In this document: piece after piece, positions 11,434-48,000 of the stretch | How positions within the stretch are numbered: the first letter of the stretch is position 1 | Layout of the letters: every line of letters begins with the position of its first letter | Source of the DNA: Gibbula magus | Taxonomy: Eukaryota > Mollusca > Gastropoda > Trochida > Trochidae | Reading direction: 5' to 3' | DNA length: 64,000 nt | NCBI GenBank assembly: GCA_936450465.1 | Contig: OW388291.1 | Coordinates: forward strand, 33,766,656 to 33,830,655 | The notes under the pieces: model-generated | The model's input: only the letters and a program-made list of their open reading frames with translations | The model's database searches: none | What the model was told of the DNA's origin: nothing | Position numbers and translations under genes: made by a program

Positions 11434-14400
11434 TCAACCTCGCATGGCAGGGGCAGTGCCGTTGCTGTAATGAAAAATAATATGAATTATTATGCATTAT
11501 CGTGAGCCAAAGAAATATACAAACCGTCATAGTGTGGTAAACAACTTCGATTGTCTGTCGATATTTTCAAACGTCTATAATCTTATTCCGATTTATTTCA
11601 AAATAGCATACAGTGTAAGGCGTGGCTTATAAGTTAGATTACTGCGCATATAGTCGACGCAGTTATATTAGCTCCTGATCATATGGAATATCCCCGGCTA
11701 CAGTGATACTCAATACAGTGTAAATAAGTCTTGATCGTTAGCACCTTCGTAACCACATGCGTAGTGACCGTTAATACAGTGTTATCATTCATTCTCATGA
11801 TTAGTTTTGAAGGGAATACACATGCACAGTGACCACCAATAAAGTATAAATAATTCCTGATTATGATTACTTTCGTAGGGAGTCCACAGGGACAGTGGCC
11901 ACCAATAAAGTATAAATAATTCATGAGCATGATTACTTTCGTAGGGAAAACACAGGGACAGTGGCCACCAATAAAGTATAAATAATTCATGATCACGATT
12001 AGTTTTGAAGGGAATACACAGGGACAGTGACCACCAATAAAGTATAAATAATTCATGATCATGATTACTTGCGTAGGGAATACACAGGGACATAGGCCAC
12101 CAATAAAGTATAAATAATCCTGATCATGATTACTTGCGTAGGGAATACACAGGGACAGTGACCACCAATAAAGTATAAATAATTCATGATCATGATTAGT
12201 TTTGAAGGGAATACACAGGGACAGTGACCACCAATAAAGTATGAATAATTCCTGATCATGATTACTTGCGTAGGGAATACACAGGGACATAGGCCACCAA
12301 TAAAGTATAAATAATTCAAGATCATGATTACTTTCGTAGGGAATCCACAGGCACAGTGACCACCAATAAAGTATAAATAATTCCTGATCATGATTACTTT
12401 CGTAGGGAATCCACAGGGACAGTGGCCACCAATAAAGTATAAATAAATCCAGATCATGATTACTTGCGTAGGGAATACACAGGGATCCGGACGTCGACAT
12501 AGGCCACCAATAAAGTATAAATAATCCTGATCATGATTACTTTCGTAGGGAATCCACAGGGACAGTGGCCACCAATAAAGTATAAATAATTCCAGATCAT
12601 GATTACTTGCGTAGGGAATACACAGGGACATAGGCCATCAATAAAGTATAAATAATCCAGATCATGATTACTTTCGTAGGGAATCCACAGGCACAGTGAC
12701 CACCAATAAAGTATAAATAATTCCTGATCATGATTACTTGCGTAGGGAATACACAGGGGCAGTGGCCACCAATAAAGTATAAATAATTCCTGATCATGAT
12801 TACTTTCGTAGGGAATCCAAAGGCACAGTGACCACCAATAAAGTATAAATAATTCCAGATCATGATTACTTGCGTAGGGAAAACACAGGGACAGTGGCCA
12901 CCAATAAAGTATAAATAATTCATGATCACGATTAGTTTTGAAGGGAATACACAGGGACAGTGACCACCAATAAAGTATAAATAATTCATGATCATGATTA
13001 CTTGCGTAGGGAATACACAGGGACATAGGCCACCAATAAAGTATAAATAATCCTGATCATGATTACTTGCGTAGGGAATACACAGGGACAGTGACCACCA
13101 ATAAAGTATAAATAATTCATGATCATGATTACTTTCGTAGGGAAAACACAGGGACAGTGGCCACCAATAAAGTATAAATAATTCCTGATCACGATTAGTT
13201 TTGAAGGGAATACACAGGGACAGTGACCACCAATAAAATATGAATAATTCATGATCATGATTACTTGCGTAGGGAATACACAGGGACATAAGCCACCAAT
13301 AAAGTATAAATAAGCCTGATCATGATTACTTGCGTAGGGTATACACAGGGACATAGGCCACCAATAAAGTATAAATAATTCCAGATCATGATTACTTTCG
13401 TAGGGAATCCACAGGCACAGTGACCACCAATAAAGTTTAAATAATTCCTAATCATGATTACTTGCGTAGGGAATACACGGGCACAGTGACCACCAATAAA
13501 GTATAAATAATTCCTGATCATGATTACTTTCGTAGGGAATCCACAGGCACGGTGGCCACCAATAAAGTATAAATAATTCCTGATCATGATTACTTGCGTA
13601 GGGAATCAACAGGCACAGTGACCACCAATAAAGTATAAATAATTCCTGATCATGATTACTTGCGTAGGGAATACACAGGGACATAGGCAACCAATAAAAT
13701 ATAAATAATCCAGATCATGATTACTTGCGTAGGGAATCCACAGGGACAGTGGCCACCAATAAAGTATAAATAATTCCTGATCATGATTACTTTCGTAGGG
13801 AATCCACAGGCACAGTGACCACCAATATAGTATAAATAATTCCAGATCATGATTACTTGCGTAGGGAATCAACAGGCACAGTGACCACCAATAAAGTATA
13901 AATAATTCCTATTCATGATTACTTGCGTAGGGAATCCACAGGGACAGTGGCCACCAATAAAGTATAAATAATTCCTGATCATGATTACTTTCGTAGGGAA
14001 TCCACAGGCACAGTGACCACCAATAAAGTATAAATAATTCCTGATCATGATTACTTTCGTAGGGAATACACAGGGACAGTGGCCACCAATAAAGTATAAA
14101 TAAATCCAGATCATGATTACTTGCGTAGGGAATACACAGGGATCCGGACGTCGACATAGGCGACCAATAAAGTATAAATAATCCTGATCATGATTACTTT
14201 CGTAGGGAATCCACAGGGACAGTGGCCACCAATAAAGTATAAATAATTCCAGATCATGATTACTTGCGTAGGGAATACACAGGGACATAGGCCACCAATA
14301 AAGTATAAATAATCCTGATCATGATTACTTGCGTAGGATATCCACAGGCACAGTGACCACCAATAAAGTAAAAATAATTCCAGATCATGATTACTTGCGT

Positions 14401-17400
14401 AGGGAATACACAGGGACATAGGCCACCAATAAAGTATAAATAATCCTGATCATGATTACTTTCGTAGGGAATCCACAGGGACAGTGGCAACCAATAAAGT
14501 ATAAATATTTCCTGATCATGATTACTTGCGTAGGGAACCCACAGGGACAGTGGCCACCAATAAAGTATAAATAATTCCTGATCATGATTACTTTCGTAGG
14601 GAATCCACAGACACAGTGACCACCAATAAAGTATAAATAATTCATGATCATGATTACTTGCGTAGGGAATACACAGGGACATAGACCACCAATAAAGTAT
14701 AAATAATTCCTATTCATGATTACTTGCGTAGGGAATACACAGGGACATAGGCCACCAACAAAGTATAAATAATTCCTGATCATGATTACTTTCGTAGGGA
14801 ATCCACAGACACAGTGACCACCAATAAAGTATAAATAATTCATGATCATGATTACTTGCGTAGGGAATACACAGGGACATAGACCACCAATAAAGTATAA
14901 ATAATTCCTATTCATGATTACTTGCGTAGGGAATACAACGGGACATAGGCCACCAACAAAGTATAAATAATTCCTGATCATGCTTACTTTCGTAGGGAAT
15001 CCACAGGCACAGTGACCACCAATAAAGTATAAATAATTCCTGATAATGATTACTTGCGTAGGGAATACACAGGGACATAGGCCACCAATAAAGTATAAAT
15101 AATTCCTAATCATGATTACTTTCGTAGGGAAAACACAGGGACATAGGCCACCAATAAAGTATAAATAATCCTGATCATGATTACTTGCGTAGGATATCCA
15201 CAGGCACAGTGACCACCAATAAAGTAAAAATAATTCCAGATCATGATTACTTGCGTAGGGAATACACAGGGACATAGGCCACCAATAAAGTATAAATAAT
15301 CCTGATCATGATTACTTTCGTAGGGAATCCACAGGGACAGTGGCAACCAATAAAGTATAAATATTTCCTGATCATGATTACTTGCGTAGGGATTCCACAG
15401 GGACAGTGACCACCAATACAGTATAAATAATTCATGATCATGATTACTTGCGTAGGGAATCCACAGGGACAGTGGCCACCAATAAAGTATAAATAATTCA
15501 TAATCATGATTACTTTCGTAGGGAAAACACAGGGACAGTGGCCACCAATAAAGTATAAATAATTCCTGATCATGATTACTTGCGTAGGGAACCCACAGGG
15601 ACAGTGGCCACCAATAAAGTATAAATAATTCCTGATCATGATTGCTTTCGTAGGGAATCCACAGACACAGTGACCACCAATAAAGTATAAATAATTCATG
15701 ATCATGATTACTTGCGTAGGGAATACACAGGGACATAGACCACCAATAAAGTATAAATAATTCCTATTCATGATTACTTGCGTAGGGAATACACAGGGAC
15801 ATAGGCCACCAACAAAGTATAAATACTTCCTGATCATGATTACTTTCGTAGGGAATCCACAGGCACAGTGACCACCAATAAAGTATAAATAATTCCTGAT
15901 AATGATTACTTGCGTAGGGAATACACAGGGACATAGGCCACCAATAAAGTATAAATAATCCTGATCATGATTACTTTCGTAGGGAATCCACAGGGACAGT
16001 GGCAACCAATAAAGTATAAATATTTCCTGATCATGATTACTTGCGTAGGGATTCCACAGGGACAGTGACCACCAATACAGTATAAATAATTCATGATCAT
16101 GATTACTTGCGTAGGGAATCCACAGGGACAGTGGCCACCAATAAAGTATAAATAATTCATAATCATGATTACTTTCGTAGGGAAAACACAGGGACAGTGG
16201 CCACCAATAAAGTATAAATAATTCCTGATCATGATTACTTGCGTAGGGAACCCACAGGGACAGTGGCCACCAATAAAGTATAAATAATTCCTGATCATGA
16301 TTGCTTTCGTAGGGAATCCACAGACACAGTGACCACCAATAAAGTATAAATAATTCATGATCATGATTACTTGCGTAGGGAATACACAGGGACATAGACC
16401 ACCAATAAAGTATAAATAATTCCTATTCATGATTACTTGCGTAGGGAATACACAGGGACATAGGCCACCAACAAAGTATAAATAATTCCTGATCATGATT
16501 ACTTTCGTAGGGAATCCACAGGCACAGTGACCACCAATAAAGTATAAATAATTCCTGATAATGATTACTTGCGTAGGGAATACACAGGGACATAGGCCAC
16601 CAATAAAGTATAAATAATTCCTAATCATGATTACTTTCGTAGGGAAAACACAGGGACAGTGGCCACCAATAAAGTATAAATAATTCCTGATCATGATTAC
16701 TTTCGTAGGGAATCCACAGGCACAGTGACCACCAATAAAGTATAAATAATTCCTGATCATGATAACTTGCGTAGGGAATACACAGGGACGTAGGCCACCA
16801 ATAAAGTATAAATAATTCCATATCATGATTACTTGCGTAGGGAATACACAGGGACAGTGGCCAGCGATACAGTTTCAATAGTTCCTACTCATGAACACTA
16901 ACTTTAGGAATCAGCATGTCCATGGCAAATCTTTACGACGTAAATAGTTTCCAATTATGATAACTTACGTAGGAAAGCCACATGCACAGTGGCCATCAAC
17001 ACAGTGCCACCTATGATCACATTTGCAGCCACGCTGTTGAGCCACTTGTATACAGTGGCCTGGGCGAACAAAGCAGTCAGCTGGAGACAAGAGGAAACGT
17101 AAGTTAATATATTATCATTTAAGGACAGAAAGGCAAGTTAAGTCACCAGTAGTTTTAAATTCTTTGGTTGTGATCATACAAACAACTGGACCCAAGCTAA
17201 GATAGTCGCAAGCGCCATACATGTCAAATGGTTTCTAATGACTGAAACAGCTAAAGTCCGTGTTACAATTAGAGCAGGTGCTACTTACGGTTGTGGTCCC
17301 CACAAGTGTCTCCTACTACACAAGTACAGATGTTCCTCACACATTTGACGGTATGACCCCCACAGACTTCATGAGTACAGTGGGATACGTCGTCTCCATT

Positions 17401-20400
17401 ACAAGGCTCACTTGCGGTAAGAGCTGAGTAAAACAAGACAAAATGGAAATGGTGGAACCAAGGACATACATGCATGTATACATTATTGTTGTTAACCCCA
17501 GAATACTTCACGATTATTGCTTAGTATGCAGCGGGATTGATTTGAGTTCTCGGCTTTCTGATTGCGGGTTAATCTTTAACTTGGGATGGTTTAAACTTTT
17601 GATATGTCTTTGAAACTTGATATATGTGTGTTTCCTTTTACATAAGACCATTGAATAAGATCTAATCTTTCGTAAATTATCCTTACATGTTAACTGCTTT
17701 TTTAAGGATAAGGAACCCAGGGGTTCTTTTGCTCTCAACGCACTCTTGTTAAATTAGTGTTAGGGGTGTCGGATTATTTTTTTTTGTTGGTTGGCAATGA
17801 TAAAACTTAATGTCATCACATTCAGGTGACAGTAACTCTATAACAAGACTTTTGCAGTAGGACTTGATATACGCTAACATTCCTTGCTGCAGTATACTAA
17901 GTTCTGTGGAAGATTACCTCTACCGATCAGATGTCTTTCTCACAGCCCACCTGTACAGTACATTTACATGGGCTTTCTGGATATAACATTTGTATAAAGT
18001 ACCTCATAATTGGCTAAAGGTTTGATTAACGGTGCATGCTTGGTCCATATAAACTTTTTTTATCTTTAAATTGAGCCTTTCAATCATTGCCAAAATTAAA
18101 GATATGAACTTAAATTTACCGTTTCACCAGTGTAGCAACCTTGGTTTAACAATATGACTTGCCATTCATATGAAGAATATACAAAAACTTTTTCCTTTTC
18201 AATTTCTGATTTAAAACATAAAATTAAATCAGAGATCTTATGTGACCGTAATTAGTGACAAAGTTGTAGATAGCTGACTTCCAATGAACAAGTTTCTGTT
18301 GATTAAGGCATATACATGTAGGTACATTGTGCATACAATAAAATAGAGACCACCGACTCATTCTTCGCATAAGCAAATAGCCGTTTCTTCAGTTGGACAC
18401 ATACAGTACATAACAATCTTGAATCATTCACCTTCTTGCTTGCAAAAGGTTTTTAAATGTCGGTATGTCTACCCCGAGTAATATGGTGTACGGTGAATGG
18501 GTGAATGCGGAATATTCCCTTTGTACATAATTAAGGATTCTGCCCTTTGGGGCAGAATCCTTATTGTTATTGGCGTGTTTTGTTTTTTTATTATTTGCAC
18601 CGATTTTGTCCCCCCTATTCTGCAGAAATGGCTGCAGAGAATTCAACCAAACTTGACAATCTGACAGCCCTTAGTGTGAACTAATTAAATTTAGCTTTTG
18701 GGCCCTATCGTTTCACCCATTAAAGGTCCAGTTCGAATCCAATTTTCGATTTTTAACATAGGAAAAATTTTCAAAATGCACTTAAAGACTTGGAACTTTA
18801 TGCAAAAGATGCGCAATGACCATGCGAGCAAAAAAGTCAATCATGACGAATTCGTAAGTCACGTGGTTTTTCCGCCATTTTGATTTTAGACACATTTTAC
18901 AATTTTCCGACCCCATGCACCTTTGGCAATCTTCTCCTCTGAAGATACTAGCATCTAAGAGCTCAAACTGGCATATATGTGTAGCTAAAGGGTTGGTGAT
19001 TAAACGATAGTCCAAAGCATTAGCGAACCTCTTGTACTTTTTTCACAGTGACCTTTCAAAGTCCGACAATTTTTGAAAATCGCAAAATTCAAAGGGACAT
19101 AACTCAAATACCTACCCATCGAATTTTATGATTTTTTCAGGAGAGTAAGATTGGACTATGGCCTTTATGAATCAATCATAAAATCGCTCGCGAACAGTCA
19201 TTTCCGGTCAAAATAGAGAAAAACTTTAACATGGGGAATTTTTCTAAAATGCCCTTAGAGATTTGTAACTTTTTGCAAAAGATGCGCAAGAACAATACAA
19301 GCAAAAAAGTAAATCATGACCAATTCGTAGGTCACGTGGTTAAGCCGCCATTTCGATTTTCTTAAAATTTGTCTGATTTTGACATGTTAAATTTGGGTCT
19401 AAATAATCCCAGTGACATGCTAGAGACTCGCAACTTATTTTAAAAGACGTTTAATAACTAGACAAGCAAAATATGATACCATTGCGAAGTCGTAGGTCAC
19501 GTGGTTTCGACGCCATATTGAATTTTAACCTTTTTTGATCATGCACTTTTGCGGAAACACCACTTTGAAGACAGTTGCATCTAAGCGCTGAATCTGAGAT
19601 TTATATGCAGCTGAAGCATTCGAGAATAACAAGTTTGTTATATTTTGAGTTAACTCCTAATACTTGTTTCACTATCACCTTTCAAAGTATGGTCATTTTG
19701 AATATATGATAAGTTTGATTTGAACTGACTTGATGAAGATTTTATTGAGGCGTCACTGGACAATAGACCACTCATAATTTGATTTTTGAGTAATTTCTAT
19801 TGTAGAGGCATCGGACATAGCCACGAACTTCTACTTCAACCCGGAAGCAATTCAGAGACAATGCAGTCCATTTCATTTTGATGTGTAAACAGAGGAAATT
19901 CCTTCTTTCGTTTTGACATACATGCTGGGGGGTCGGTCCTGCTAAAGATTATAGATGGTGTTATTGTATCGAGAAATACTGACTGTTGCCGAAAATTACC
20001 AATTTGAAGATAGTCGACTCAGGATAATGACAATATATATGTAAAAGTAGTTCTGATCGAAAACCGGACACTGCACCACGATTAACGCAAATCTATTAGA
20101 CGAATGTGATACAGTACTGCTGTACAGTGTATGTTGACGTAATTGCATCAATGCATCATGATTCTCCCAAGAGCAAAGAAATGATCTTGGACAAAATATC
20201 AACAAGTGCTACATAAATTCCCTTAATTTCGATAAATATTATCGGAACAAAACAGTGTCTTATAGATGTATAAAATATAATCACTAATTTCCCCGAGCAA
20301 AGACAAGAGGACCGGTAGCTGTGTGGTAAGACCGCTGGATTTGTACTCCAGTGGACTGAGTTCAATTCTACCAGTATAAAACTTTTTTGACTTAAATATA

Positions 20401-30055: not shown

Positions 30056-33000
30056 TCAACGTCGCGTGGCGGTGCTGTTGCTTCTGAAATGAACAAGAAT
30101 TCTGTATTATTATTTCTTATATCATGGAGCAAGGAATTAAGCAATCACGTGAACAGTGTATTTCTTAACCTGTTTAAAGTCATTTAATCAGGAAGCATAA
30201 ATTATGTTATGTATCCACAACGCGGACATTCTTCGTTTAATTAATGTTTAAAATTAGGATTGTAATGGAACGGTCTTTTACCTAATTACTAATTACCTAA
30301 AGACTACTCCGCATATAGTCCATGCAATTATTGTATATTAGTTCCTGATAATCTAGGAAAAAACATTAAGCATCAATACAGTGTGAATAATTCATGATCA
30401 TGATCACTTACGTAGTGACTCAAAAGGAACAGTGACAATCAATACAGTGTAAATAATTCTTGATAATGATTACTTACGTAGTGACTCCAAAGGAACAGTG
30501 ACAATCAATACAGTGTAAATAATTCTTGATAATGATTACTTACGTAGTGACTCCAAAGGAACAGTGCACGTGACCATCAATACAGTGTAAATAATTCGTG
30601 ATAATGATTACTTACGTAGTGACTCCAAAGGAACAGTGACAATTAATACAGTGTAAATAATTCTTGATAATGATTACTTACGTAGTGACTCCAAAGGAAC
30701 AGTGCACGTGACCATCAATACAGTGTAAATAATTCTTGATAATGATTACTTACGTAGTGACTCCAAAGGAACAGTGACAATCAATACAGTGTAAATAATT
30801 CTTGATAATGACCACTTACGTAGTGACTCCGAAGGACCAGTGACCATCAATAGAGTGTAAATAATTCTTGATAATGACAACTAACGTAGTGACTCCAAAG
30901 GAACAGTGACAATCAATACAGTGAAAATAATTCTTGATAATGATTACTTACGTAGTGACTCCAAAGGAACAGTGACAATCAATACAGTGTAAATAATTCT
31001 TGATAATGACCACTTACGTAGTGACTCCAAAGTAACAGTGACCATTAATACAGTGTAAATAATTCTTGATAATGACCACTTACGTAGTGACTCCAAATGA
31101 ACAGTGACCATCAATACAGTGTAAATAATTCTTGATAATGATTACTTACGTAGTGACTCCAAAGGAACAGTGACAATCAATACAGTGTAAATAATTCTTG
31201 ATAATGATTACTTACGTAGTGACTCCAAAGGAACAGTGACCATCAATACAGTGTAAATAATTCTTGATAATGACCACTTACGTAGTGACTCCAAAGGAAC
31301 ATTGACCATCAATACAGTGTAAATAATTCATGATAATGATTACTTACGTAGTGACTCCAAAGGAACAGTGACCATCAATACAGTGTAAATAATTCTTGAT
31401 AATGATTACTTACGTAGTGACTCCAAAGGAACAGTGACCATCAATACAGTGTAAATAATTCTTGATAATGACCACATACGTAGTGACTCCAAAGGAACAG
31501 TGACCATCAATACAGTGTAAATAAGTCTTGATAATGATTACTTACGTAGTGACTCCAAAGGAACAGTGACAATCAATACAGTGTAAATAATTCTTGATAA
31601 TGATTACTTACGTAGTGACTCCAAAGGAACAGTGACCATCAATACTGTGTAAATAAGTCTTGATAATGACCACTTACGTAGTGACTCCAAAGGAACAGTG
31701 ACAATCAATACAGTGTAAATAATTCTTGATAATGATTACTTACGTAGTGACTCCAAAGGAACAGTGACCATCAATACAGTGTAAATAATTCTTGATAATG
31801 ATTACTTACGTAGTGACTCCAAAGGAACAGTGACAATCAATACAGTGTAATTAAGTCCTGTTCATGATTACCTGCGTAGTGACTCCAAAGGAACAGTGAC
31901 AATCAATACAGTGTAAATAATTCATGATAATGATTACTTACGTAATGACTCCAAAGGAACAGTGACCATCAATACAGTGTAAATAAGTCCTGTTCATGAT
32001 TACCTGCGTAGTGACTCCAAGGGAACAGTGACAATCAATACAGTGTAAATAAGTCCTGTTCATGATTACCTGCGTAGTGACTCCAAAGGAACAGTGACAA
32101 TCAATACAGTGTAAATAGTTTCTGGTCGTGATTACTTACGTAGGATATCCACAGGCACAGTGTCCATCAATACAGTGCCAGCCAAAAGCACAGTTGCAGT
32201 TGTGCTGATTTGCCATATGCACGCAGTGATTTTGTATAGTGCGGCAGCGTACTGAAAGCAGAGGACACCAACTTTGAAATTTCATTGTTTCTTCTTCTGG
32301 CAGATACACTGCTATAATATATACAAGAAGAGATACCCTGATGTTGTAACTAGGACCTAGATAACCCACCTCCTTGAGGGAAACTGTTGACATGTTGCTA
32401 GTGGTTTGTGGGTTACACGTGACTTACTGGGGTGGTTAATTCAACTCGTCACGACACAGATGGCGCTGTGGTCGGAGTGCCTGGCGTAACGTCTTCAATT
32501 ATTAATTATTTCATATACATGTGTAATTGTTAAATATATTTATACGACCTGTTTAAAGTTACAAGTATCCTAGGCTAGCAGAGGATGGTTTTTCCTATTC
32601 AAGAAGTGTTGATATATTTGATATCAGAAGGCACGAGGGTGAGATTTAATTTATCATTCAGAATCATTCTTTAACAATTAATAGCAAAATAATGAACATA
32701 TCTGAAAAACAAAACTGCCATTTAGCTTCTTCTGCAGTCATCTCAGTGGGGTAATATCATTTTGACGTCATCAGCATTATGGCATCATAGCATTGTTAGG
32801 TAATCAACTTTGTGGCGTCATAGCAATGTCAGCAGTGTTCTCAGTGATGTAAAAGCAATGCGGTGTCATTAGGTGATCTCTTAAATCAATACCATACATC
32901 TAATAGACAAAGGTATCATATAAACACAGTGGCTTCAGTTGCAGGTCCTCTACCATTTAAAGGGGCTGTAACAACTCTTTTGCGAAAGTTATTTTTCAAA

Positions 33001-36000
33001 TTTCCAGTTTATAATGATCAAAAACGATTCCCGTGGCTTTACTGAGCCATGTACACTATTTTTTAAATTTATTTTTTCCGAAGAGAGAAGGGTGTTTTAC
33101 TATTGGTGAAGTTTACATTTCATTGACTTATTTGAGCGAAAAACGTGCTACTGCCCCTTTAATGCCATTGTCCCGCTATACAATGGGAAAGACTGTTCAA
33201 AAGCAGATGAGGTACTGCTACTTACTGTCATGTTCTCCGCAGAAGTCGACGATACAAGTACATACGCCATTCACACACCCGATGGTATGATCCCCGCATA
33301 CTTCATGAGTGCAGCTAGATATATCACCTCCAGTGCACGGCTCACCCGCAGTCAGAGCTAAGTAAAACACGACAAATGGAAATGACGGAACCAAGGACAT
33401 GTACATGTACATGTACGTAGATGGAATCTCATCACATTCACTACATGACATATGTTCAATAATATACACTTCATTACTCATGGTGAGGTCATCATGTGAA
33501 ATACAAGGACTCGAGACCTGAATCCCGAGGCGGTCTGACCTGACCGAGACCGCAGGTCGGGGTCAGGTCAGGCCGCCGAGGGAGTCAGGTCCGAGAGTCA
33601 CAATATTCAGTTCACAGTGTGTTCAATAGTTCTCCTTTCACATTGATTCACATCAAACAGGTCCATAATGTACATATTAATCTTATGTTGATATTTATCC
33701 CATGATCCTAATTTTCTAAGATTGAATGAAGAGCACATACAATCTCCGAGTAATGCCCCCTGCTCATTACAAAGGTTATTTAGGCACATTGGGGGTCACA
33801 GGCTCACCAAATTTATATGTTATAATCCCCATTGGCCAAGGAGTCTGTACACAACATTTCAGCTTTATAATGCTTTTGGGACTGGAGAAGAAAATGAATT
33901 ACCTTTTTAGGTCATGACCCCTGTAACCCATATTTGGAGTCACCAAATCTACAATTCAAAATCCCCTTAGCCAAGGAATCTTTTCATAGAACATCAGCTC
34001 TTTGGGGTCATTGGTTCTGGAGAAGAAGTCGAAAAGAGATAGTTTACGGACGGACGAACGGACATGCTATGCCATGCTATAAGCCCATCGGATCTTACAG
34101 GTCTTGTGAGCTAAAAATACAGCCATTGGTTCTCTAGCTCACCACACCTTAAACAGTAAACTAAATAAGTTTCAAAATGTTTTCCAAACTTTAAGTAGAG
34201 CGATTTTAAGAAGAAAATAGGTCATGGTCCCTGTGGCCCATATTTGGGGTCACCAAATGTACAATTTAGATTTCCAATTGGCTAAGGCTGGGCGCACACT
34301 ACCGGTATGTCCGATTTGTTTGGGCGATGCGCTGCGTTTTTCTACGCAAACTACACGCGTTAAACAAGTGCGTTACACATTGCGTTTTATAAAATGTTCA
34401 TATACCAAAATAGAATAAACATATTCCCCAAATCATCAAACAAAATGGCATAAAATTTGGAGAGAAACAATACAAATCCCTTCTCAAGTGAGTATACCTT
34501 ATTAATGAATCCTACTTACAAGTGGAAACATTATTCACAAAGACCTGACCAAAATCCAACGAACGTTATACTCTAGCCCTCAACACATTGGCCTAACGAG
34601 CTGTTTCCATCTCTCTACCAGGGAGTGGTCACCCCAAGGTCAACACAATGCAATTAAATAACATGCAGACCCTGGACTCACAGCCAGTGAATTATATCTT
34701 TTTAATCTTTTTTTCCCAAACTTATTTATTGCGGGGTGCCATTAGGCACCGCGCGGATATATAGTGGTGAGTTTGGCTAGCTCACATGGGTAACTTGATA
34801 CGCGCAATGCGAATCTTGGCAGTATACTGCCGTTGTTAGGGATGCTTACTGTGGCAGAACAGAACAGAACAGAACGGTATTTTATTTCTCGTAATTCACA
34901 TTAGTGACATAGAGAACAGTCAAATACATTATATATACACACATATATATATACATATGTTTACAAATTGGAATAATGTGCCGTATACATAATTATGTGT
35001 TGTTTATGGTTTCATATAGATTAAAACTTACACAGACCTTCTTTAACGAATTTTGCGAAGTTTAATAAAAGTGGTTTATATGTGGTTTTCATAAGAGATA
35101 TATACTTTTCAATTGAAGGATACTTACAATAATATGATGGAAAGTATTTACTTCTTAAATCTGATAGAGAGGGGCAGGCCAAAAGGAAATGAAATTCGTC
35201 ACCAGTGGAGGCATTACATAGATTACAAATTCTTCGGTCCTTATCAATTTTACTCCACCGACCAGTTTCAATAGGTAATCTATGGTTTGAAGTTTTGAAG
35301 CGGGTAAGCCAAATTCTTAGATTGGTAGGAAGTTCTAGAATATATGAGTCGATATGGGGTTTAACTTTGTAGATTTTGTAGTATTTAGCTTTTGATAATT
35401 CAATTTGAGAAGCAGTCCACATTTTAAAAAATTGATCAATAAGGACTCGTTTAATAGATGATTTTAAAATGTTTGAACTGTTAAATTTTTTATTTATCCA
35501 TACATAAATGAAACCTGTTTCCCGCAATATTCCTTCAATTGAATTAATTAAATTGAAATTGAATTTAGGATTGGCATTTTGTAAAGTAAAAATAAGAAGG
35601 TACATTTTATATGATAATTTGTTTGGATTTTGTAACATTTTACACCAGAAAGAAATAATTCTTATTTTAATACAAATACTGAGAGGATAACGACCAAGTT
35701 CGCCATAGACCATATAATCTGGAGTAGACATTTTTACTTTAAGAATATATTTACAAAATTTAAGATGAAGCCGTTCAAGACAAATAATATTTTCAAATCC
35801 CCATACTTCAGATGAATATAAGAGTATTGGTTGTACAAGTTGATCAAATAGTTTTAACTGACAATCAAGGGGGATATCTAAAATATTAACTTTACGCAAT
35901 AATGCGAACATTGATATTGAGGCTTGCCCATACAGGCGTTTAATACATTTACAGAAACGACCATTGTTACTAAATAAAATACCAAGATAAACATATTCTT

Positions 36001-39000
36001 AAACAACATCAATATTATCACCATGAAAGGAAAATGTCGGGTGTTTTCTACATGTACCTTTAGAGAATATTATGATTTTCGTTTTTGAAATGTGGCTAAA
36101 TATATATCGCTTTAAAGCTAATAAGCATTGTCAATGCTGTAATCAGAATAGCCTGCTTCCTATCAATTCGTTGACCTCGCCGCATTGTCTTTGCTGACCC
36201 GACCATCGTTGGCAGTACATATTATCACTTGCGAAAACTATTTGCGGAAATCCACAGATTAAATATGAAAATAAATAATTTCTTAATACAAAGAGCGTGA
36301 TATACCAAATCATCAATTATTTTTAAAACTCTTGCTTTCCTACAAATGAAAAACAGCCTTTCACACCAGTTTATAAAACACTAAAAGTTATCACACCTTT
36401 TACAAGTAAACATTGATGCAGTGCATCAAATCCCACGCAAAATATATTGTCATCAGAGTAAGTTTGGGTCAACTGTCGTGGATGGCATAAGTGCAAGTAG
36501 AAAGTTTGCAATGCCTTTATGGATATGCATTGCAGTGTAACTGGTGAGCTAATGATTGGTGGCACTGTTGTGGGAAAGAGACAAGTCATTAATAAGTGCG
36601 AGATTGTATTTATTCATGAAATAATTTTTTTTTAAGAAAGCTATAGCTATCTAGCTATATATATGAACAAATAAAAAAGTTTCTTTTGACATGTGAGAGA
36701 ATAAAACAAAATATTATGACTAGTAAATGTTTCGTTTGGCATATAATAACTATATAGGTAGCTATAGTTATATAGCTGTATATATGAACAAATGAAAAGT
36801 TTCTTTCGACGTGCGAGAAAATAAAACAAAATATTATGACTAGTAAATGTTTCGTTTGGCATATATAATAACTATCTAGGTAGCTATAGTTATATAGCTA
36901 TATATATGAACAAATGAAAATTTTCTTTCAACGTGCGAGAAAATAAAACAAAAATATTATGACTAGTAAATGTTTCTTTTGGCATATAATAACTATCTAG
37001 GTAGCTATAGTTATATAGCTATATATATAAACAAATGAAAAGTTTCTTTCGACGTGCGAGAAAATAAAACAAAAATGTTATGACTAGTAAATGTTTCTTT
37101 TGGCATATAATAACTATCTAGGTAGCTATAGTTATATAGCTATAAATGAAAAAGTAGCTTAATATTCTTTGGCAAGTGAGGTAGCGCGATGAGCTGTCTG
37201 AAGAAATAAAAAGTTTCTTTTGGCATATAAGATAACTATCTTGCTGTCTCCATCTCAATGTTTTGGCAAGTATTTCTACGGATGAAACATTTAAATGAAA
37301 ATGGCAATTTGGCAACTCCAACTTCAATGAGATCCTCTTCTTCATTGAGAGATGTTAAATCGGCTTTAAAAAAACATTGGCAGCGCGTGCTGCAAATAGC
37401 AACGAATCACGTGATTAATTAATTCATGTTAGGGGCCACTTGAAAAAGCATATTAAACCGAAACCAGCTTATCTACTTCCCTGGTCAAAGGTCACGCAGA
37501 CACTTGTTGCTGAGGGCCTGGGCTGGCCTCATTCCCAGATAATGGTGACACCGAAACCGAAACCGAAACCAAATCTATTTTTGTCCGCGCACTGTCGCTG
37601 TATCGGTGCTGACCTAATTCCTGGACACTCGCATCGTTTATCAAGGATACGAAATGTGAACATTCGCTAGTTTCACAATAATTTTCGACTCGCCGGGAGC
37701 ATGCGCAGATAGATGCTGCAGGGAATCCGGTCTGGCCGGAAGTAGTCGTTAGCGTAGAAATACTGTATTATCTTGTTGAATCTATCGAATATAACTGCTG
37801 TAAAGACAATTATTTGAGAACGACAGCAGTCAAAAACGAGTTTTTACGACCCTGTCTATAACAATGATGATCTGTTATAATGATAAAGACCTGTTTTTGT
37901 TGTAGGGACTATAAACACAAAGGGATTGTGTTGACAGGCATGACAAATGGCAGTGGTGCTGACACAAAATAAAGTCGTATTTTCTAACTAATCCCCTCTG
38001 TTGTTTTTGCATCGACACTTAGTAACATACACATACAATTGAAATTATGTTATTCATCTTACCTTTTATTGTAGTGTTTCAAGTTGTTTAGAGATTTAAT
38101 TGACGTAAAATCCAATTGTATTTACCTTAGTCTCGAACTTCACTTGAACCAGGACTCTATTCACTATTGTGGCGATTCTCTATCTTATCTCTTCTAAATT
38201 GATTCAATGCAAGTGCTCATTTTAAAATGAAATTAAAATACATTATACGATATTCTCAGTTCTCCTTTCTAAATTATTTTAGTGACTGTAAACTGTTATT
38301 GCAAGAGATCAAGGTAACTTGTAATCACAACACCATCGATCTGCACAAATATTTTCTGTTATATAGATAAAAATGTTTCAGTGTTTGAAGTTTTGCACTC
38401 AGATGAAGACGGACTTTTAGACTCTTCTAACCTATCGCATGTTGATCCCAAGAAGCGCCTTTAAAAAACCTAGAACCAAAATATGGAATTATAATCAACG
38501 ACAGGAACATTAAAGTCAAATGTAGTGCCATTGTTTTACATAAGTGTTGTCTGCCATCAAGAACATTATGAAAAAGTTTCAATTCACAATTAAGTTGATT
38601 AAGAACATTGAATTTTATACATAAATTACCGGGCAAAAGAAAGGACTCACCTCAGTTTATTTTACCATATGTATGATTTTCAATTGCAAATATCTCAAGT
38701 TTTCGATGTCATAATACAAAACTGATAAGTACAGGTGTTTAATTAGCAGTCAAAGAATACTTCTACATGTTTTAATTATTTAAAAATAAATGAAATTTTA
38801 AATTTAATTTTGTTTTAAAATTATTTTTTGATGATACACAAATGATCATCGACGTATAAGACATATCCTACGTTAAATGTATAGATGTGCCTGATTTTGC
38901 ACACATTTACAAACTTTTAAACAGGGTAGGGGTCATGTTGGTGTAAATTTCATTCTTAACCCTGTCTTCATTACAAAAAGATATTTGAACTAAAATTTAA

Positions 39001-42000
39001 CCACAGTCACCAACAAAGTCATTCAAACTACTGCAGATAATTATTATTGTATCACGCCATAGTCAAATACATCTGATTTAAATATTGAATTAATCGAAAC
39101 AAACTTAGGTGAGTCCTTTCTTTTGCCCGGTAGTTTACATTATTGGAATGTCTTTCGGCTTCTCAAGTTTATATCATTACAAAATTTCAGGATATATAGA
39201 AACAAAAAAACAACTCTAAATATATTCATAATGTCCTTTTGATTGTTATCATTCACTCTTAGCCTAATAAAGATTAGTAATAATATATTCATTTCATGTG
39301 ATTGTCATGTTTGCATGTACATGCATGATTTATTTGATATCATATCATATATTAACTTACAAAAATGACATACAAATACTGTTTGTAAACATCATCGATA
39401 GGCCAGTGTTGTTTGTTGTCTTGGTTCAGACTCAATATTCATTTTATTACCAACAACTATGCACCATTTTTGTGTCGCCTATATTGCTTTCATGTAAAAG
39501 CATGAAAGGAGATGATTTCATTATGTATGAATTATTATACTCTCGGATACAATTTCATTTCAAGTTGAGCTTTTTATACAAAGAGCTCTTCTGAAGAGAG
39601 AAAAAACAAAATACGGCATTCAGTCTAGTTTCTCAACATTTGTATCCAGTGAACTGAACTACATTTCATTTGGCAAAACATTTACTAATAATATGAAATT
39701 ATTAAGACCCATAATACAACAAGTTACGAACAAAATCTCTTTTTTTTCATTATTGTAAACTGATAATAATACGGCTCAATGAGTACATTTAATATGTACA
39801 CTTACGACATTTGCTTATCTTTATTACATTATGTTTTGTGATTCTCAGCTCAACTAGCCTATATATACTTTAGATTTTATATATATATACTTGTTGATTT
39901 ATGAGTCTGAATTTTCTGGGTGTATGTAGAAAATAACATGTCATAAATATTTTCAGTGATTCCTGTTATTAATAGTATGTTTTTGTTTAAACATCATTAT
40001 TTATACTCACCGTTGATAGTTAACAATATGCCCAATTATCCTAATCTGTCTAATCCCGACAATCTTTACACAGCTTAAAGACAGAGTTATCGCTCAAGTG
40101 AACTGCACTCACCACTCACCGGCAGGTGGCCTACCTTATATGGCCATTGCTTCTTCTGATGGACAGACACGAAGCCGAACGCGACCGAGGGGAGGCCGGG
40201 AGGGAACTTACGATTGTTAACTATCAACGGTGAGTATAAATAATGATGTTTAAACAAAAACATACTATTATTTAATATACTCTCCGTGATAGTTAACAAT
40301 ATGCCCGATTGCCACAGAGGTGGAGGGGAGCGAGAGGCCCCTAAGAGGGATAGCTCTGTCTTAACAAGAGTCAAGTTGGTGAGCCAATACAGCGTAACCA
40401 GCCTGAACCCCGATGGGGTTCATCTGTCAACCGGAGGGTTAAGCTTGACCCAACTCGTAACCGGAGGGACTCTCACCCGCGTGGTCACCAACTAAAGAAA
40501 AGACAACAAACGCATCACTAAAATCATCGAGACTATGTTTATTGCATACTCTAGACTGGCCCAAGGAGCAGCCGAATTAACGAGGGGGGGGTAGGCCTCT
40601 TCGGTACGAGGCCGACGGAACTCGTTGCTGGGCGTACACCTGTGCGCCCAACCGATGAATCCCCTCCATGTCCTCGTTGGATACGTCTCTAAGATAGTGA
40701 TTGGCGAACACCAGGCCCGACTTCCAGAAACAGCCGGCCATGATGTCCGCCACTGCCATGTTACTGTGAAGAGCCATCGTAGCCGAGATGGCTCTGATCT
40801 CGTGTGGATTGGCCTTCGCTGGCGGGTCGAGGCCCGCGGCCTTGTAGGCGTCCAACACTGCCGAGCGGAGATAGACGCTGAGTTGACGCTTGTCTAACTC
40901 CCGAACACTAGTCTGGGAGTGCGGAAGAAAAAGTTTCCTTCTCCCTTGACGTAGTGTCTTGGTCTTTTCGGTGTAGATCCGCAGGGCTCTCACCGGACAA
41001 AGGAGCCGATCCTCGTCCGTCGGATCTATGCTACCGGAAAGAGCCGGTAACGAAAAGGTTCTACCCCTTTCGTCTGCGGCTTGGTTCTTGCAGATGAACT
41101 CAGGGGCTAACCCCAGTGACGCCGACCCACCGTCTCTCACCTCAAAACGCAAGAGGTCCGCCTGGAGAGCGTGAAGCTCTGAAATCCTGGCTGCGGACCC
41201 CATCGCAACCAAAAAGGCTGTTTTGATGGTGAGACGGAGAAGAGTCGTCTCTGTCAATGGCTCATAGTGGTCCGACTTGAGATGGTTGAGCACCACTGTC
41301 AGGTCCCACTCCGGAGGCCTGAGCTTCCTCCGCCCGTCCTCATTCCGGTAGGTCTTAATAAGTTCTTTAAGGACCGAGATGTCAACCTGGGGCTCACGCT
41401 TCCTAAGGACTGACATGACCGCCGCCAGGTTGGTGTTAATTGAGGAAGCTTTGAGCTTCCTCACCTCTCGTAGGTACACCAGGTACTCAGCTACCTGCGG
41501 GACCGTTACCGCCTGGATAGCATACCCCTCCTTCGCGCAGAAGGCGGCGAAGGCACCCCACTGGGCGTCATAGAGATTCCTCGTGGAGGATCTCTGCGAA
41601 GATGCGACCGCTTCGGCGACGGACTTGGAAAACCCCGCCCCTGTCAACCCCCTTTGGAGACAAACCAGGCGTGAAGGTGGAGCGCCTGGGGGTTCTCGTG
41701 AACCCGCCCGCTTGGTTTGCTCGTCAATAGGTCCCATCTCAGAGGGAGGGGGACAGGGTCTTGGCGGCACATCCTCCTCAGGGGAACGTACCAGGCCCTG
41801 GCTGGCCACAACGGAGCTATGAGTAGGAGTTGAAGTACTCGTGTCTCCTGTACCTTCGCCACCACGTGACTCAGGATGGCGTGAGGGGGATAGGCGTAGG
41901 CGACCATCCCCTCCCATCCTAACGCGAGCGCATCGAGAGCCCACGCGGCCGGGTCCGGTACGGGGGACACGTACGTCGGCAACTGGTGGTTGAGCCGAGT

Positions 42001-45000
42001 CGCAAAGAGGTCTATGTGAGGTTTGCCGAACCTCAAACACAGACTCTCGAACACCCTCGGGTGCAACATCCACTCCGTCGAAGGAGGTTTGTCCGGCCGA
42101 GACAAGGCGTCCGCCAGGACGTTCTTGGCTCCTGGGATGTGCACCGCCCTGAGAGAGAGTCCGAGACTGTCCACTAGGTGAAACAGCTCCGCCACCAGTT
42201 GAAGTAGAGAGTCTGCCTTGGTTGACCCCTGCTTGTTTATGGCCCAGGCCGCCGCTGAGCTGTCCGTGTGAACACACAGGACCTGCCCCCGCAGGTGACC
42301 TGACCAATGGCTGATCGCCAGCCTTATGGCGTCCAGTTCGAGGACGTTGATATGGCGTCGTGATTGCGCTGGCGACCACACCCCCGCCGTTTGGTCTGAA
42401 TCTAGGTGGGCTCCCCACCCCTGGGTGGAGGCATCCACGTATAGCTGAGACGTCGCTGGGGGCTGCCTGAGGGGCACTCCCCCCAGCACGTTGGACTCCT
42501 GCTGCCACCAGGAGAGGTGGTGTCTCAACTCGGTTGGAATCGGGAAGACATGACGGCAAGTCTTCTCCCTGACGTGCGTGTTTACGAAAATCTGCAGGGG
42601 CCTGAGCTGCAACCGACCCCTTCGAGTGAAGTGTTGGGTTGCGCTCAAGAACCCCAACAGCCTCTGCCACTTGCGGAGTGACAGCGGCTCCCGGAGTGCT
42701 AATTCCAGGAGATCTTTGTAGCGCCCCATCCGTTCTGTAGTGACGAAAGCTCTGTAGGTCACGGTATCCAGGCGAGCTCCCAGAAAGACCAGCGACGTCG
42801 TTGGCTCCAGGTCTGACTTGTCTAGGTTGACTAGCCATCCCAGCCGCCTGAACAACGTTATCACAAAGTCTCGTTGCGCCTCCAGAACAGATGGGGATCT
42901 GTTGTGAGTGAACCCGTCGTCCAGATACATCGCGAACTGCACGTCCACTCGATGAAGGTATTGGACGATGGGCTGGGTCACGCGAGTGAAAAGCCATGGA
43001 GCCGACGATATCCCGAACGGTAGAACGTTCCACTGAAAGTGGCGACCCGCCAGGACAAAACGGAGGTATCTGCGATCGCCATGGTAGATGGGAATGTGCA
43101 GATACGCGTCCTGCAGATCGAGGGATATCATCGAATCCAAGGGCTCCAGCAACCGCATCACTGATGGTACGGTCAAGAGACGAAAATATGGCGGCCGCTC
43201 TAGGAAGGAGAGGTTGAACTCCTTCAAGTCGTGGATCAGCCGCCACTTTTTCGGGTCTCGCTTCGGTCGCACGAAGACCGGAGAATAGTATCCTGGAGTG
43301 AGGTTTTGGGGCAGGAGTTCCTCCACCGCCCGTTTGGAGATGAGTGTCTCCACCTGTTCCAGCGTCAGTGCGAGCCGATCTCGTTCTAGCGGCCTCTCTG
43401 TTGGAAAACAGGTTAGCGGGGGGCGGTGTGTCACGGGAATACGAAACCCCCGCTCCAAAACCTTGCAGACGAAAGGATCGAGCCCCAATTGCGCCCAGTT
43501 GGCCACAAACCGAGAGAGTCGACCTCCCACTGGCCCTTCCCACGCCGGGACAACCTGTGGAGGCAGCTCGGGAGCCGCCCACGAGTCACTGCTTCCTCGG
43601 GGTACCTCCATATGCGCGGCCCCTGCCACGCTGACTTCCCTTCTTGGGGGTGTGCTTGGGAGAGGGGCCGGCATTGAAGTCACGACTTCTGTCCTGCCGA
43701 CCCCCAAACCGAAAGGAAACTCCGCCAGTCTTGGCGTTACCCACGGGAGTGTTCGCGCCTCCCTTCCTCTTCTTGGGCGTATGCGTCTGAGAAGAGGCTC
43801 TACCCCCGCCAGCGGCCAGTCTGTTGGTCAATTCCTGCTGCTGACACTCCTGCCGCTGCCGGAGGACCCCGGCAATCTGCCCATCAAAGAGAGATGAAGA
43901 TGACGCGGGAGCGGCCCGCAAGCGGTTCCGGAGCTCCGCTGGAAGGTTTGTCCGGGCAAGGAAACCATCTCTCCTGAGATTTGTGACCCCCGCCGAAATG
44001 CGGGAGGCGCACAACATCATCTGAGCGATGTTCCCCGCCACGGCGCCGAAACCGCGGTAAAGAGCCTTCGCCCCTCCCTCCATCCCCGCCTCCTTCGCAA
44101 AGGATGCCATACCCTGACAGGCATGCGCCACGTGATTGGCCAACCCCAGGATGCTCCTAGCCTCTTTGTCAAGATGGCTCAAGTGAGCGTCCGACACCTG
44201 GTGAGGTACGGAGGGGACGGCCACCCGGCGAATATCGTCGTCCAGGACAGGGGGACAGAGGGGGAAAGAAGACTGTGCTACTGGGAGGGAAGCGCGCTGC
44301 TTCTCACCCAGAACCAGGGGGGGCAGGAGACGGCCTGGCGCCGCCGCGGCGACATTGGCGTCGTAATCCCTGCCCGCCGCCTGAAGGAGTCTGTGTGGCG
44401 GCAGTGCCACGAGGCGTTGGGTAGGCGCCTCTTCCTCGGCGCAGAATGTCTCCATTCTGGCCAGCTTGGTCGAGGAGGGTTCATCCTCAACCTCAACTAA
44501 GCCCACTTGACACCAGTCGGCGATAGCCGCCAGACGTTCCTTGAGGTCAGGGGCATCCACTTGAGGCGTCTCCACAATGGTCAACTCGGGAGAGGATCTC
44601 CCTGAAGTGGACATCCCACCCTCCTGGGAAGCCACCTCCGGGGCCGACTTGTCTGGATCTGAGGAGGTGCCGGCAGGTGAAACAACCACCACCCTCCTCC
44701 TCTTGGGCGTGGACGGCGGGGAGGTCGAGGGCGAAGTAACCCCTTCCTCAACCCTAGTCTGCGCCGGCAGTCGTCTGTCCAGCATGGAGGAAACCATGTC
44801 CTTGACTGAGGACAGAATATCCTCAGTCAATCTCCTTGTATCAAAGGGAGGAGGAGAAAGAGGCGTCAACCTCCTCTTCTTGGACTTGTGTTTCCTCTTC
44901 CTCCTAGGCGAAAGTCGCCGGTCTGGAAAGGACTCGGCGTCAGGGGAGGATCTCCTGATGGGAGATCTCTCACCCCCACTACCCTGTGAAGAGACATAAG

Positions 45001-48000
45001 TGTCCTTGGCGGCCGCCTCTCGACCCGATCCCGCCCCTGCCTCTGGCAAATCGAATTCCGCCGTGTCCTCCGAGATCACCAGGTCTGAAGCCGGCGACCT
45101 GGGATCGGACATGGCGGTGCCGGCGCTAGCGGTAGCGGTGGCGGTAGCGGACGGAGAGGGCCGCCTGGACGCCCTCAGCTTAGACTGACTCTCACTCTTC
45201 TTAACGGAGTTGCGATACTCGCGATGCTCCGCCACCGAGAGGTCAGCACATTCCTCACACCTGTCCGCGTCCGGACAAAGGTTGCGGCACAGGCGGCAAA
45301 GGCCGTGGGGGTCAAATCGCGCTGACTTCCTATAGCCACACGCCCCACAGAACGCCGAGTATGGCGAAGTCATACTCAGCAATCAAAAAGAGAGAACGCG
45401 CGAGCGGCCGGCGCTATCCCCGCGCAAGCGGCAAGCGCTAAACAAACGCAGGCGGCAGCGCAATCCAACCCAGGCGACAAGCGCTGTCCAACCCAGGCGA
45501 CAACCTACCAAGAGGAGGCGGCAGGCGCTATCCACGCGCAAGCGGCAAGCGCTAAACAAACGCAGGCGGCAGCGCAATCCAACCCCGGCAAACGCCAACC
45601 GCTACAGCAGAAAACAGAAGGGCAAGCGGAATGACCCCCGCGCCAAGCGCAAGGGACAGGCGGCACGCGCAAGCGGCCCCGAGATCACCGACCTGCACGG
45701 ACTGCACGTGCAGAACGAGCACCCCGAAATCAACAACAGTTGACACGTCAACTGCAGTCAACAACCACTAACCCTGTCTAAAGGAGAGAGACTACTTCGC
45801 GAAAGGCAGTCTAACCACCCTCAGACAGAAAGAACAACTGAGAAGGAGAACAAAGTCGAGACAATAATCTTATTACTATCGAATTAGAGAGCTATCAAAA
45901 CACAACATGCTTCGATGGCCGACAGAAAAGCAATGACCATATAAGGTAGGCCACCTGCCGGTGAGTGGTGAGTGCAGTTCACTTGAGCGATAACTCTGTC
46001 TTTAAGCTGTGTAAAGATTGTCGGGATTAGACAGATTAGGATAATTGGGCATATTGTTAACTATCACGGAGAGTATATTAAATAATAGTCTCATAAATAT
46101 ATTTTGAAAAATGTGTTGTCACTTGTTGGATCTAGTGACAGTACTGGGATCTTGATAGATCTCAAGCAGCTTGAGAGAACAAGTTAGAATATATCAATCT
46201 GTTAAAAATAATGTCACCATGAACGCCGTGACAGTCAACAAAAAAATGAAATAATGATTAATTCATACTTTATTCAAAATATATTTTTATTTAACAAATA
46301 TCAATAACTTATCACAATATCTAAACGTAGAAATAGGTAGGTTACTTTTAATCGGTTGACAGCTTCATATGTAGTTCTGTAGGCTGGGAAAACCAGTCGT
46401 AAATGCTGCTTGAAACAAGTAAGTTTTCCTTTCTGTAAGAAGTTTCAACACCTAGGTACACAACAAAAACACCTGGGTTAATTTAATCATTTGTGAAACA
46501 AGTCGAGCGGATATATTGATCTGTCAAACTCGTATGGAATCCAAGGTGACAATCCGACAAAATTCCATGCGTTCGATGTTTATAAATCATCATTGCAAAC
46601 GAATTTGTGTAATATAAAGATTTCAGGGTCGTAAAAACTCGTTTTTGACTGCTGTCGTTCTCAAATAATTGTCTTTACAGCAGTTATATTCGATAGATTC
46701 AACAAGATAATACAGTATTTCTACGCTAACGACTACTTCCGGCCAGACCGGATTCCCTGCAGCATCTATCTGCGCATGCTCCCGGCGAGTCGAAAATTAT
46801 TGTGAAACTAGCGAATTGTCGTTTTTAAAATGAAAATGAGCATCCGCTAATGATTTGTAAATCTTGTTCTGACATTTATATTGTTTATTCTGTTTATGTT
46901 TCATGTATGTAAGTAAAAAAAAATATTATATTAAGAAATCTCATTCCGTTTCCTATTAGACATTACTTTCCGAGGAAACCAAAATGGCGGCCCACACAAA
47001 CGAAGAGAAAAACCATCTCTATACTCCCACGCCTCCAGGGCGTGGGAGTATAAACAGTGTCTCAGAAAACGTACAGTCAGGCATTGCTGAGGCTTGATGT
47101 GGGATATTCCTAAAATTCGGTAGTAAAGCGGCTGTGACATGCAAGCATGAGTTTGTGCGATAACCCTAAGAAGGCCGCAATCATATTTCTGTTTGGAGGA
47201 ACATCGGTTTAGGTACGGCTGTCAGTAACATGGCTTTATTGTTTAGGTTAGAAAATATTGCAGCGTTGTATAATGACTCCAGTTTGCGTATTGCGTATCC
47301 CTAAAAAGGCCTCTTTGGACCAACTTCAGCTTCGTGGAATTTACATTTTCCATGTTGCAATATTATGAACATTAAGGATTGACAAAAACAATACACTTGC
47401 CAATAACTTATATTCTTATCAAAATGTGTCCAAAATGTTCTCACCAATATGTCATAACAACAACAACAAAATTTCATATTTCCTTTTTTGATGAGCATTC
47501 TAGAAATTGAGGTGATGAAGAATGAAGAACAATTTCATGGATTACTGTTCCTCTACACATTTTTGTGAACAAATATACCTTGCAATAAAATATATTAGCC
47601 AACCCCGTATCGGTTACTTTTTAAAAGTAGCCACTTGTTTTTATGTACTGGTGAATAAGATGAAAATAGGTGTGGCGTGTTATCGTTTCACCACCAGACA
47701 GAACAGCAGGGTCAGGGGCTAGGGGCCAGACAGACAGGCACTGGGGAGAGTATTGCAATGCATGACCCCTTAACGAACTGGCTAATCCCACCATGCCTAT
47801 ACCTCCAGCAAGCAAGACTCTGAAGCCCTGTTATATAAAATGATGCAATTGGCTCTCAGCTGGCTTGAATCAAACAGCCTGGTGACTGGAGTAGGTGGGA
47901 AAAAACCCTGAATTTCATAATAGCTCTAAAACTCTTATCTTTTTCATTAGGAGGATGAAACTTAAATGTCTTGGTCTCCATCATACAAAGAAGATATTAT

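Follow-up and report, generated by a model that had tools for sequence, protein, structure and literature searches.

Introduction

How the spliceosome chooses among near-identical tandem donors or acceptors is usually studied with built minigenes. About 5–8 repeat copies lie in intron 7 of the human factor VII gene (F7), and the number of these repeats has reportedly been studied in relation to the level of factor VII. The accessible sections of PMC6627357 describe these as 37-bp repeats that contain a 5′ splice site, with the most upstream site being the one used. Among invertebrates, minisatellites have been described in intron 1 of earthworm metallothionein genes, which like the arrays reported here are intronic tandem repeats of a cysteine-rich family and differ between duplicates, whereas a splice site inside the repeat, as found here, is not described in the accessible part of that source (PMC12783039). 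MEROPS family I84 comprises molluscan protease inhibitors and is likely confined to molluscs, and its published genes have three exons and two type 1 introns, with exon 1 encoding part of the signal peptide, according to the accessible text of PMC9198434. Inhibition of subtilisin-type serine proteases is counted among the characteristics of the family.

The stretch of DNA analysed here, hereafter the window, is a 64,000-nucleotide segment of the Gibbula magus genome (C3:33766656-33830655 in a 1.47-Gb assembly), which harbors four genes of a single small, cysteine-rich family: A, B and C are read on the minus strand, D on the plus strand. The splice-donor minisatellite is a known kind of sequence, and the present case differs in its size, the paralogue series A/B/C, the loss of GTAAGT in A and a mirror case at an acceptor, of which the series and the mirror case are new. 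A cursory look through the open-licence literature revealed neither a molluscan splice-site array nor an acceptor array of any origin.

Results

Gene models and family membership

The exons of the four genes in the window are as follows (a slash marks the splice junction).

Gene B exon 2, 33226 to 33357, minus strand: 132 nt, phase-1 borders, donor ACA/GTAAGTAG
Gene B exon 3, 32140 to 32251, minus strand: 112 nt, encoding (I)RCRTIQNHCVHMANQHNCNCAFGWHCIDGHCACGYP(T), donor TAC/GTAAGTAA after 32140
Gene B intron 3, 30084 to 32139, minus strand: 2056 nt, array for the most part
Gene B exon 4, coding part, 30056 to 30083, minus strand: TTTCAG/AAGCAACAG...TGA, with AATAAA downstream at 30015-30010
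Gene C exon 2, 54240 to 54371, minus strand: 132 nt
Gene C exon 3, 52951 to 53062, minus strand: 112 nt
Gene C exon 4, coding part, 52462 to 52489, minus strand
Gene A exon 2, 17289 to 17423, minus strand: 135 nt
Gene A exon 3, 16969 to 17080, minus strand: 112 nt, donor TAC/GTAAGTTA
Gene A exon 4, coding part, 11434 to 11464, minus strand
Gene D exon 2, 340 to 471, plus strand: 132 nt
Gene D exon 3, 3539 to 3650, plus strand: 112 nt, donor TAT/GTAAGTAT, without the 66-bp array
Gene D exon 4, coding end, 5907 to 5916, plus strand: IGK, then stop

The family census returned 14 loci (A-D, D2-D4, two on C2 and five on C12), which is a lower bound, as only the best candidates were scored, and weak matches with E values of 0.025-0.97 were also observed on C4, C13, C8 and C17, at C2:80.9 Mb and at C3:33.7177 Mb, with 20 kb around the C4 match searched in addition. 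The five genes on C12 stand in tandem at 29.38-29.46 Mb without splice-site arrays of at least 3 copies, and near 29.467 Mb on C12 a 187-bp satellite with 99% matches begins. Exon 3 is 112 nt long in A, B, C and D alike, and it ends at a phase-2 GTRAGT in all 12 family genes of this genome that were read there (A-D, the two on C2, the five on C12, and D2 on C3). Exon 4 was located in A-D only, and between A and B its acceptor, frame, stop and polyA signal align, with the coding length differing by 3 nt, indicating four exons in these genes. A search for exon 1 found none in A, B or C, while a signal-peptide exon 1 was seen in D4, and in D a candidate exon 1 precedes exon 2 by about 10 kb.

Taken together, the phase-2 GTRAGT of the 12 genes and the alignment of exon 4 between A and B give good support to the gene B donor at 32140, where the earlier note had also ended exon 3, and every sequence test bore out this position. 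The 66-bp array described below is missing from nine of the 12 genes with this donor; judged from these comparisons, the exon 3 donor of gene B is independent of the array, and so is the gene model. Coding constraint was detected between A and B (dN 0.315, dS 1.249), but not between B and C, for which few sites were available (dN 0.113, dS 0.087).

A search of a large protein database gave no homologues of the family at E 0.01, and a Pfam search of the family proteins returned 0 families. Compared by eye only, exons 2 and 3 of the window genes match motifs 1-3 of family I84 as printed in PMC9198434, with GWHCIDG being identical in gene B. The tandem gene clusters, the phase-1 introns and the signal-peptide exon (in D4) are likewise shared with the I84 genes of that text, and the last C-X4-C-X-C is spaced as published, while the interval between the third and fourth cysteines of B is 6, against the published 7-9. 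The two groups differ in other respects: A, B and D have 14 cysteines (counted by eye on the translations) against 12, an extra phase-2 intron 3 and an exon 4 depart from the three-exon structure, and splice-site arrays occur in the family of this genome (PMC9198434, accessible part). The family is likely to be protease-inhibitor-like, and its members putative host-defence genes.

A 66-bp array that contains the donor of exon 3

The donor arrays of the window are given below.

Array B as delimited by TRF, 30372 to 32177, minus strand: period 66, 27.2 copies
Array B junction unit, 32112 to 32177, with 26 further copies at 30384 to 32111, minus strand: 21 of 26 with GTAAGT
Array A, 11795 to 16894, minus strand: 66-bp unit with the same junction as in B, present in 78 copies in addition to that of the exon itself, mostly GCAAGT or GAAAGT, none with GTAAGT
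Array C, 52778 to 52988, minus strand: exon 3 junction (52951) and 2 further copies, both with GTAAGT

Each repeat joins the final 38 nt of exon 3 to the initial 28 nt of intron 3. On the minus strand, array B opens with the exon 3/intron 3 junction itself, where the last exon base is 32140, and the 26 units that follow are spaced at 66 bp save for two 72-bp steps. The proposal of the earlier note that the unit spans the exon 3 donor is upheld, as the last 38 nt of the exon agree with the array consensus at 30 positions and none of 100000 unit shuffles agreed as well, whereas the 28 nt further upstream in the exon match it at only 6 positions. That note had also held that almost all 26 repeats keep GTAAGT; most do, 21 of the 26 or 81% (22 of 27 once the donor of the exon itself is counted), while five differ, with GCAGGT in three, GTATGT in one and GTTAGT in one. 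The first three of these carry GCAGGTAATC, which provides a shifted CAG/GTAATC that also pairs with U1 (−7.6), and the other two have a weaker GT. Over the whole window, GTAAGT was observed 64 times on both strands against 32.6 expected from shuffles.

Acceptors are scarce between these donors, as had been suggested. The first AG to follow the donor hexamer of the consensus unit stands at +18/+19, close to the roughly 17 nt proposed, and YAG is rare throughout the array (8 CAG and 1 TAG in 1759 nt). Each donor is preceded by GGAG at a distance of 8 nt. Predicted U1 pairing, computed as duplex energies in kcal/mol with what we take to be the sequence of the U1 5′ end, is −7.3 for the gene B exon 3 donor, and 24 of the 26 array copies reach −6 or better, the three shifted sites included, so that the suggested ladder of repeated U1 sites is borne out at the level of predicted pairing, about as good in these copies as at the exon's donor. 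Outside the arrays, sites at least as strong as the gene B donor occur at 1.4 per kb (81 of 3240 GT sites); in the interval of array B, where the donor of the exon itself is counted too, the density is 10.3 per kb. An RNA structure that might hide the decoys was looked for in exon 3 with about four units, which folds no better than shuffles (z −0.10). The array donors are plausible as competing donors, and in view of the comparisons that follow they are best downgraded to passengers of a tolerated minisatellite with possible side effects on splicing.

Coding consequence of decoy use

The phase-2 donor makes the unspliced sequence read ACG TAA G, so that a stop follows directly after the junction. 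Genes A and C have the same stop after their unspliced exon 3 junction as B, and an immediate TAA or TGA was found in the unspliced frame in 12 of the 12 genes (the last eight read by eye). When exon 3 of gene B is extended by three units, or intron 3 is retained, the predicted product ends in HCACGYPT, against GYPTSNSTATRR after normal splicing. Such a product would be 8 residues shorter in B and C and 9 residues shorter in A, with all cysteines kept. As the first decoy junction would lie 62 nt past the TAA, going by the coordinates, decay of decoy mRNAs by NMD is possible.

Copy-number series and history of the donor arrays

The 66-bp array was observed in only A, B and C of the 12 genes, with 78, 26 and 2 extra junction copies at the exon 3 donor, respectively. 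DNA searches of the assembly gave no 66-bp unit beyond the window among the best candidates listed (43 and 35 matches). B and C, whose introns diverge by 7-14%, are recent duplicates on this measure and nevertheless differ in copy number (26 vs 2), which implies that the number of copies changes fast; the difference may represent growth in B or loss in C. The diversity of units within array B resembles the divergence of the B-C flanks.

Differential retention of the donor was observed among the arrays. Both extra copies of array C reach −6 kcal/mol or better in predicted U1 pairing, while GTAAGT is missing from all 78 copies of array A and none of them reaches −6, the exon donor of gene A itself standing at −5.7; one degenerate copy (16903) retains a GT at the site, and the 5.5-kb intron 3 of gene A contains a single U1 site at −6 or better. 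Preferential conservation of the donor hexamer was looked for in array B across the 61 hexamer positions and not found, with the hexamer ranking 35 of 61, intact in 0.81 of the units where the median hexamer reaches 0.85. Nothing here thus points to selection for the donors, and with GTAAGT no better kept than its neighbors in B and missing throughout in A, the donors look like passengers of the minisatellite. The exon copies of A, B and C agree with the consensus of array B at 46 positions, and 4 of these, including +2, have almost vanished from array A (this count and the tree below took in 64 of the 78 A units). The loss of GTAAGT from array A fits drift with homogenisation; selection against decoys could also account for it, and 4 of 46 is compatible with drift as well.

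In a midpoint-rooted tree without support values, 95 junction copies, 70 of them distinct, fell into three groups, namely the units of array A, the array units of B and C together, and the three exon-attached copies. Over the intron-like 28 nt, 3 positions distinguish array A from array B, 6 distinguish exon A from exon B, and 4-7 distinguish arrays from exon copies, which suggests that a second junction copy existed before A and B split. Over the exon-like 38 nt, 10 differences separate arrays A and B, against 9 and 8 between each array and the exon of its gene, so that a shared array origin rests on the 28 nt; exchange between the arrays would also fit. The array consensus of A and B differs at 13 of 66 positions, against 95 of 237 aligned positions in the flanking intron, where the alignment is poor, and this lower divergence could reflect either constraint or exchange between the arrays.

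An acceptor array in gene D

A second splice-site array is present in the same family, at the other end of an intron.

Gene D acceptor array, 1 to 347, beginning 161 bp before the window, plus strand: 25-26-bp unit around CAG/TGCTCATC, reaching 8 nt into exon 2

This array has 19 full units and presents 19 extra CAG acceptors before the acceptor of exon 2 itself, each unit having CAG followed by TGCTCATC or a near variant, and D2 (C3, about 43.44-43.45 Mb) has 4 extra acceptors before its exon 2. D3 and D4 (C3:33.7397 and 33.7285 Mb) are without an acceptor array, and their exon 2 starts with CAG/TGCTCATC, just as the common unit of the D array reads, so that the acceptor and the initial 8 nt of exon 2 belong to the unit. 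A single extension of 25 or 26 nt at exon 2 of D would shift the reading frame, unlike an extension through the donor array. With arrays of at least 3 copies sought, 7 of the 12 genes read at the exon 3 end had neither a donor nor an acceptor array. Gene D has three further arrays, none of them on a splice site, so that two splice-site arrays in one family may be a coincidence. Intron 2 of gene D contains, off the splice sites, a 25-bp array of 37 copies (1672-2597), whose unit includes a pyrimidine stretch and CAAGG.

Other elements in the window

A GC-rich (55-60%) element with inverted ends and long ORFs occupies 40002-46077 on the minus strand; one of its ORFs matches a reverse transcriptase (PF00078), a match to RNase H falls below the cut-off, and the element has the appearance of what we take to be a DIRS-type retroelement. 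It is flanked by a 193-bp inverted repeat whose arms, at 37662-37854 and 46624-46816, are 100% identical. A 121-bp tandem array of 4.2 copies was also observed at 36639-37144.

Discussion

In the F7 repeats, as in the genes described here, the first repeat encloses the 5′ splice site of the exon itself, and donor-like sites recur in the downstream repeats, in 24 of 26 copies of array B and both copies of array C, although not in array A (0 of 78). The two systems differ in scale, the F7 repeat measuring 37 bp and the present one 66 bp, with as many as 78 extra copies, and their sequences are unrelated; aberrant F7 transcripts are described as yielding no functional protein, whereas the decoy products predicted here would differ in a short tail only, and a paralogue series such as the present one is not described for F7 in the accessible part of the source (PMC6627357).

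We consider it probable that the exon 3/intron 3 junction was duplicated in tandem and became a minisatellite with passenger donors, in which the donor attached to the exon is mainly used and the array is tolerated. A 66-bp stretch across the exon 3/intron 3 border would have undergone duplication, probably in an ancestor shared by A, B and C, before its amplification into a minisatellite, with copy number shifting (78, 26 and 2 extra) presumably by unequal exchange; both this age and this mechanism we infer from the comparison of the arrays. The donors would have come along with each copy of the unit and shared its fate. In the pre-mRNA the exon-attached donor would probably be the most used, as reported for the factor VII repeats, while decoy donors would lengthen exon 3 in 66-nt steps in a minority of transcripts, some of which might be degraded by NMD. 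Such an array would be cheap to carry, since a decoy or retention product would stop at the in-frame TAA with its cysteines intact, losing only the last 8 (B, C) or 9 (A) residues, which may account for its persistence.

The ladder of donors might instead be a selected splicing rheostat, its copy number setting the diversion of U1 and exon 3 and thereby the amount of inhibitor or its C-terminal tail. The equal position of the array in three paralogues with 78, 26 and 2 copies is in keeping with such a role, as are predicted U1 pairing at −6 kcal/mol or better in 24 of 26 B decoys against none of 78 in A, the second splice-site array in D and D2, and an array consensus in which A and B have diverged less than in the flanking intron; yet the donor hexamer is not preferentially conserved in array B, array A is without any GTAAGT, and 7 of 12 genes carry neither array at the threshold of 3 copies, so that we regard a rheostat as unlikely. 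A broader version, in which splice junctions of this immune-type family are recurrently seeded into satellites (donors in A, B and C, acceptors in D and D2), copy number acts as a heritable and fast-changing splicing dial on inhibitor dosage or tail, and the lengthening of array A was accompanied by a loss of GT that silenced it, seems to us decidedly unlikely. It is very improbable that the array serves as a U1 platform in some other way, blocking premature polyadenylation or promoting retention of intron 3, for the 10.3 strong U1 sites per kb in array B (exon donor included; 1.4 outside the arrays), which would suit this function, stand against an intron 3 of 5.5 kb in gene A with one site at −6 or better.

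The chance is equally slight that exon 3 is terminal, with the TAA in ACGTAAG as its stop codon and the array in the 3′ UTR. The published I84 genes with three exons and two introns (PMC9198434, accessible part) and the in-frame TAA or TGA immediately after exon 3 in all 12 genes read would agree with this, but GTRAGT stands at this place in the same 12 genes, the downstream acceptor, frame, stop and polyA signal are matched between A and B with 3 nt of difference in coding length, and D has a further acceptor and stop. The use of the units as mini-exons or translated repeats is extremely improbable, even though the unit equals 22 codons and array A is poor in stops, with stop-to-stop stretches of up to 391 aa: acceptors of the YAG type are few in array B, the longest stretch there is 95 aa with exon 3 included, and the stop of exon 3 lies upstream of the array. 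Array A in particular was rejected as a coding repeat, its frame shifting within the stretches and none of them spanning the 5.1-kb array.

With passenger donors in a tolerated minisatellite as the preferred reading, these related genes constitute a natural series of 0, 2, 26 and 78 extra donor junctions (the 78 without GTAAGT) and of 0, 4 and 19 extra acceptors. If copy number changes the output of these genes, intronic repeats overlapping splice sites would provide a direct route to expression differences in what is likely a host-defence family.
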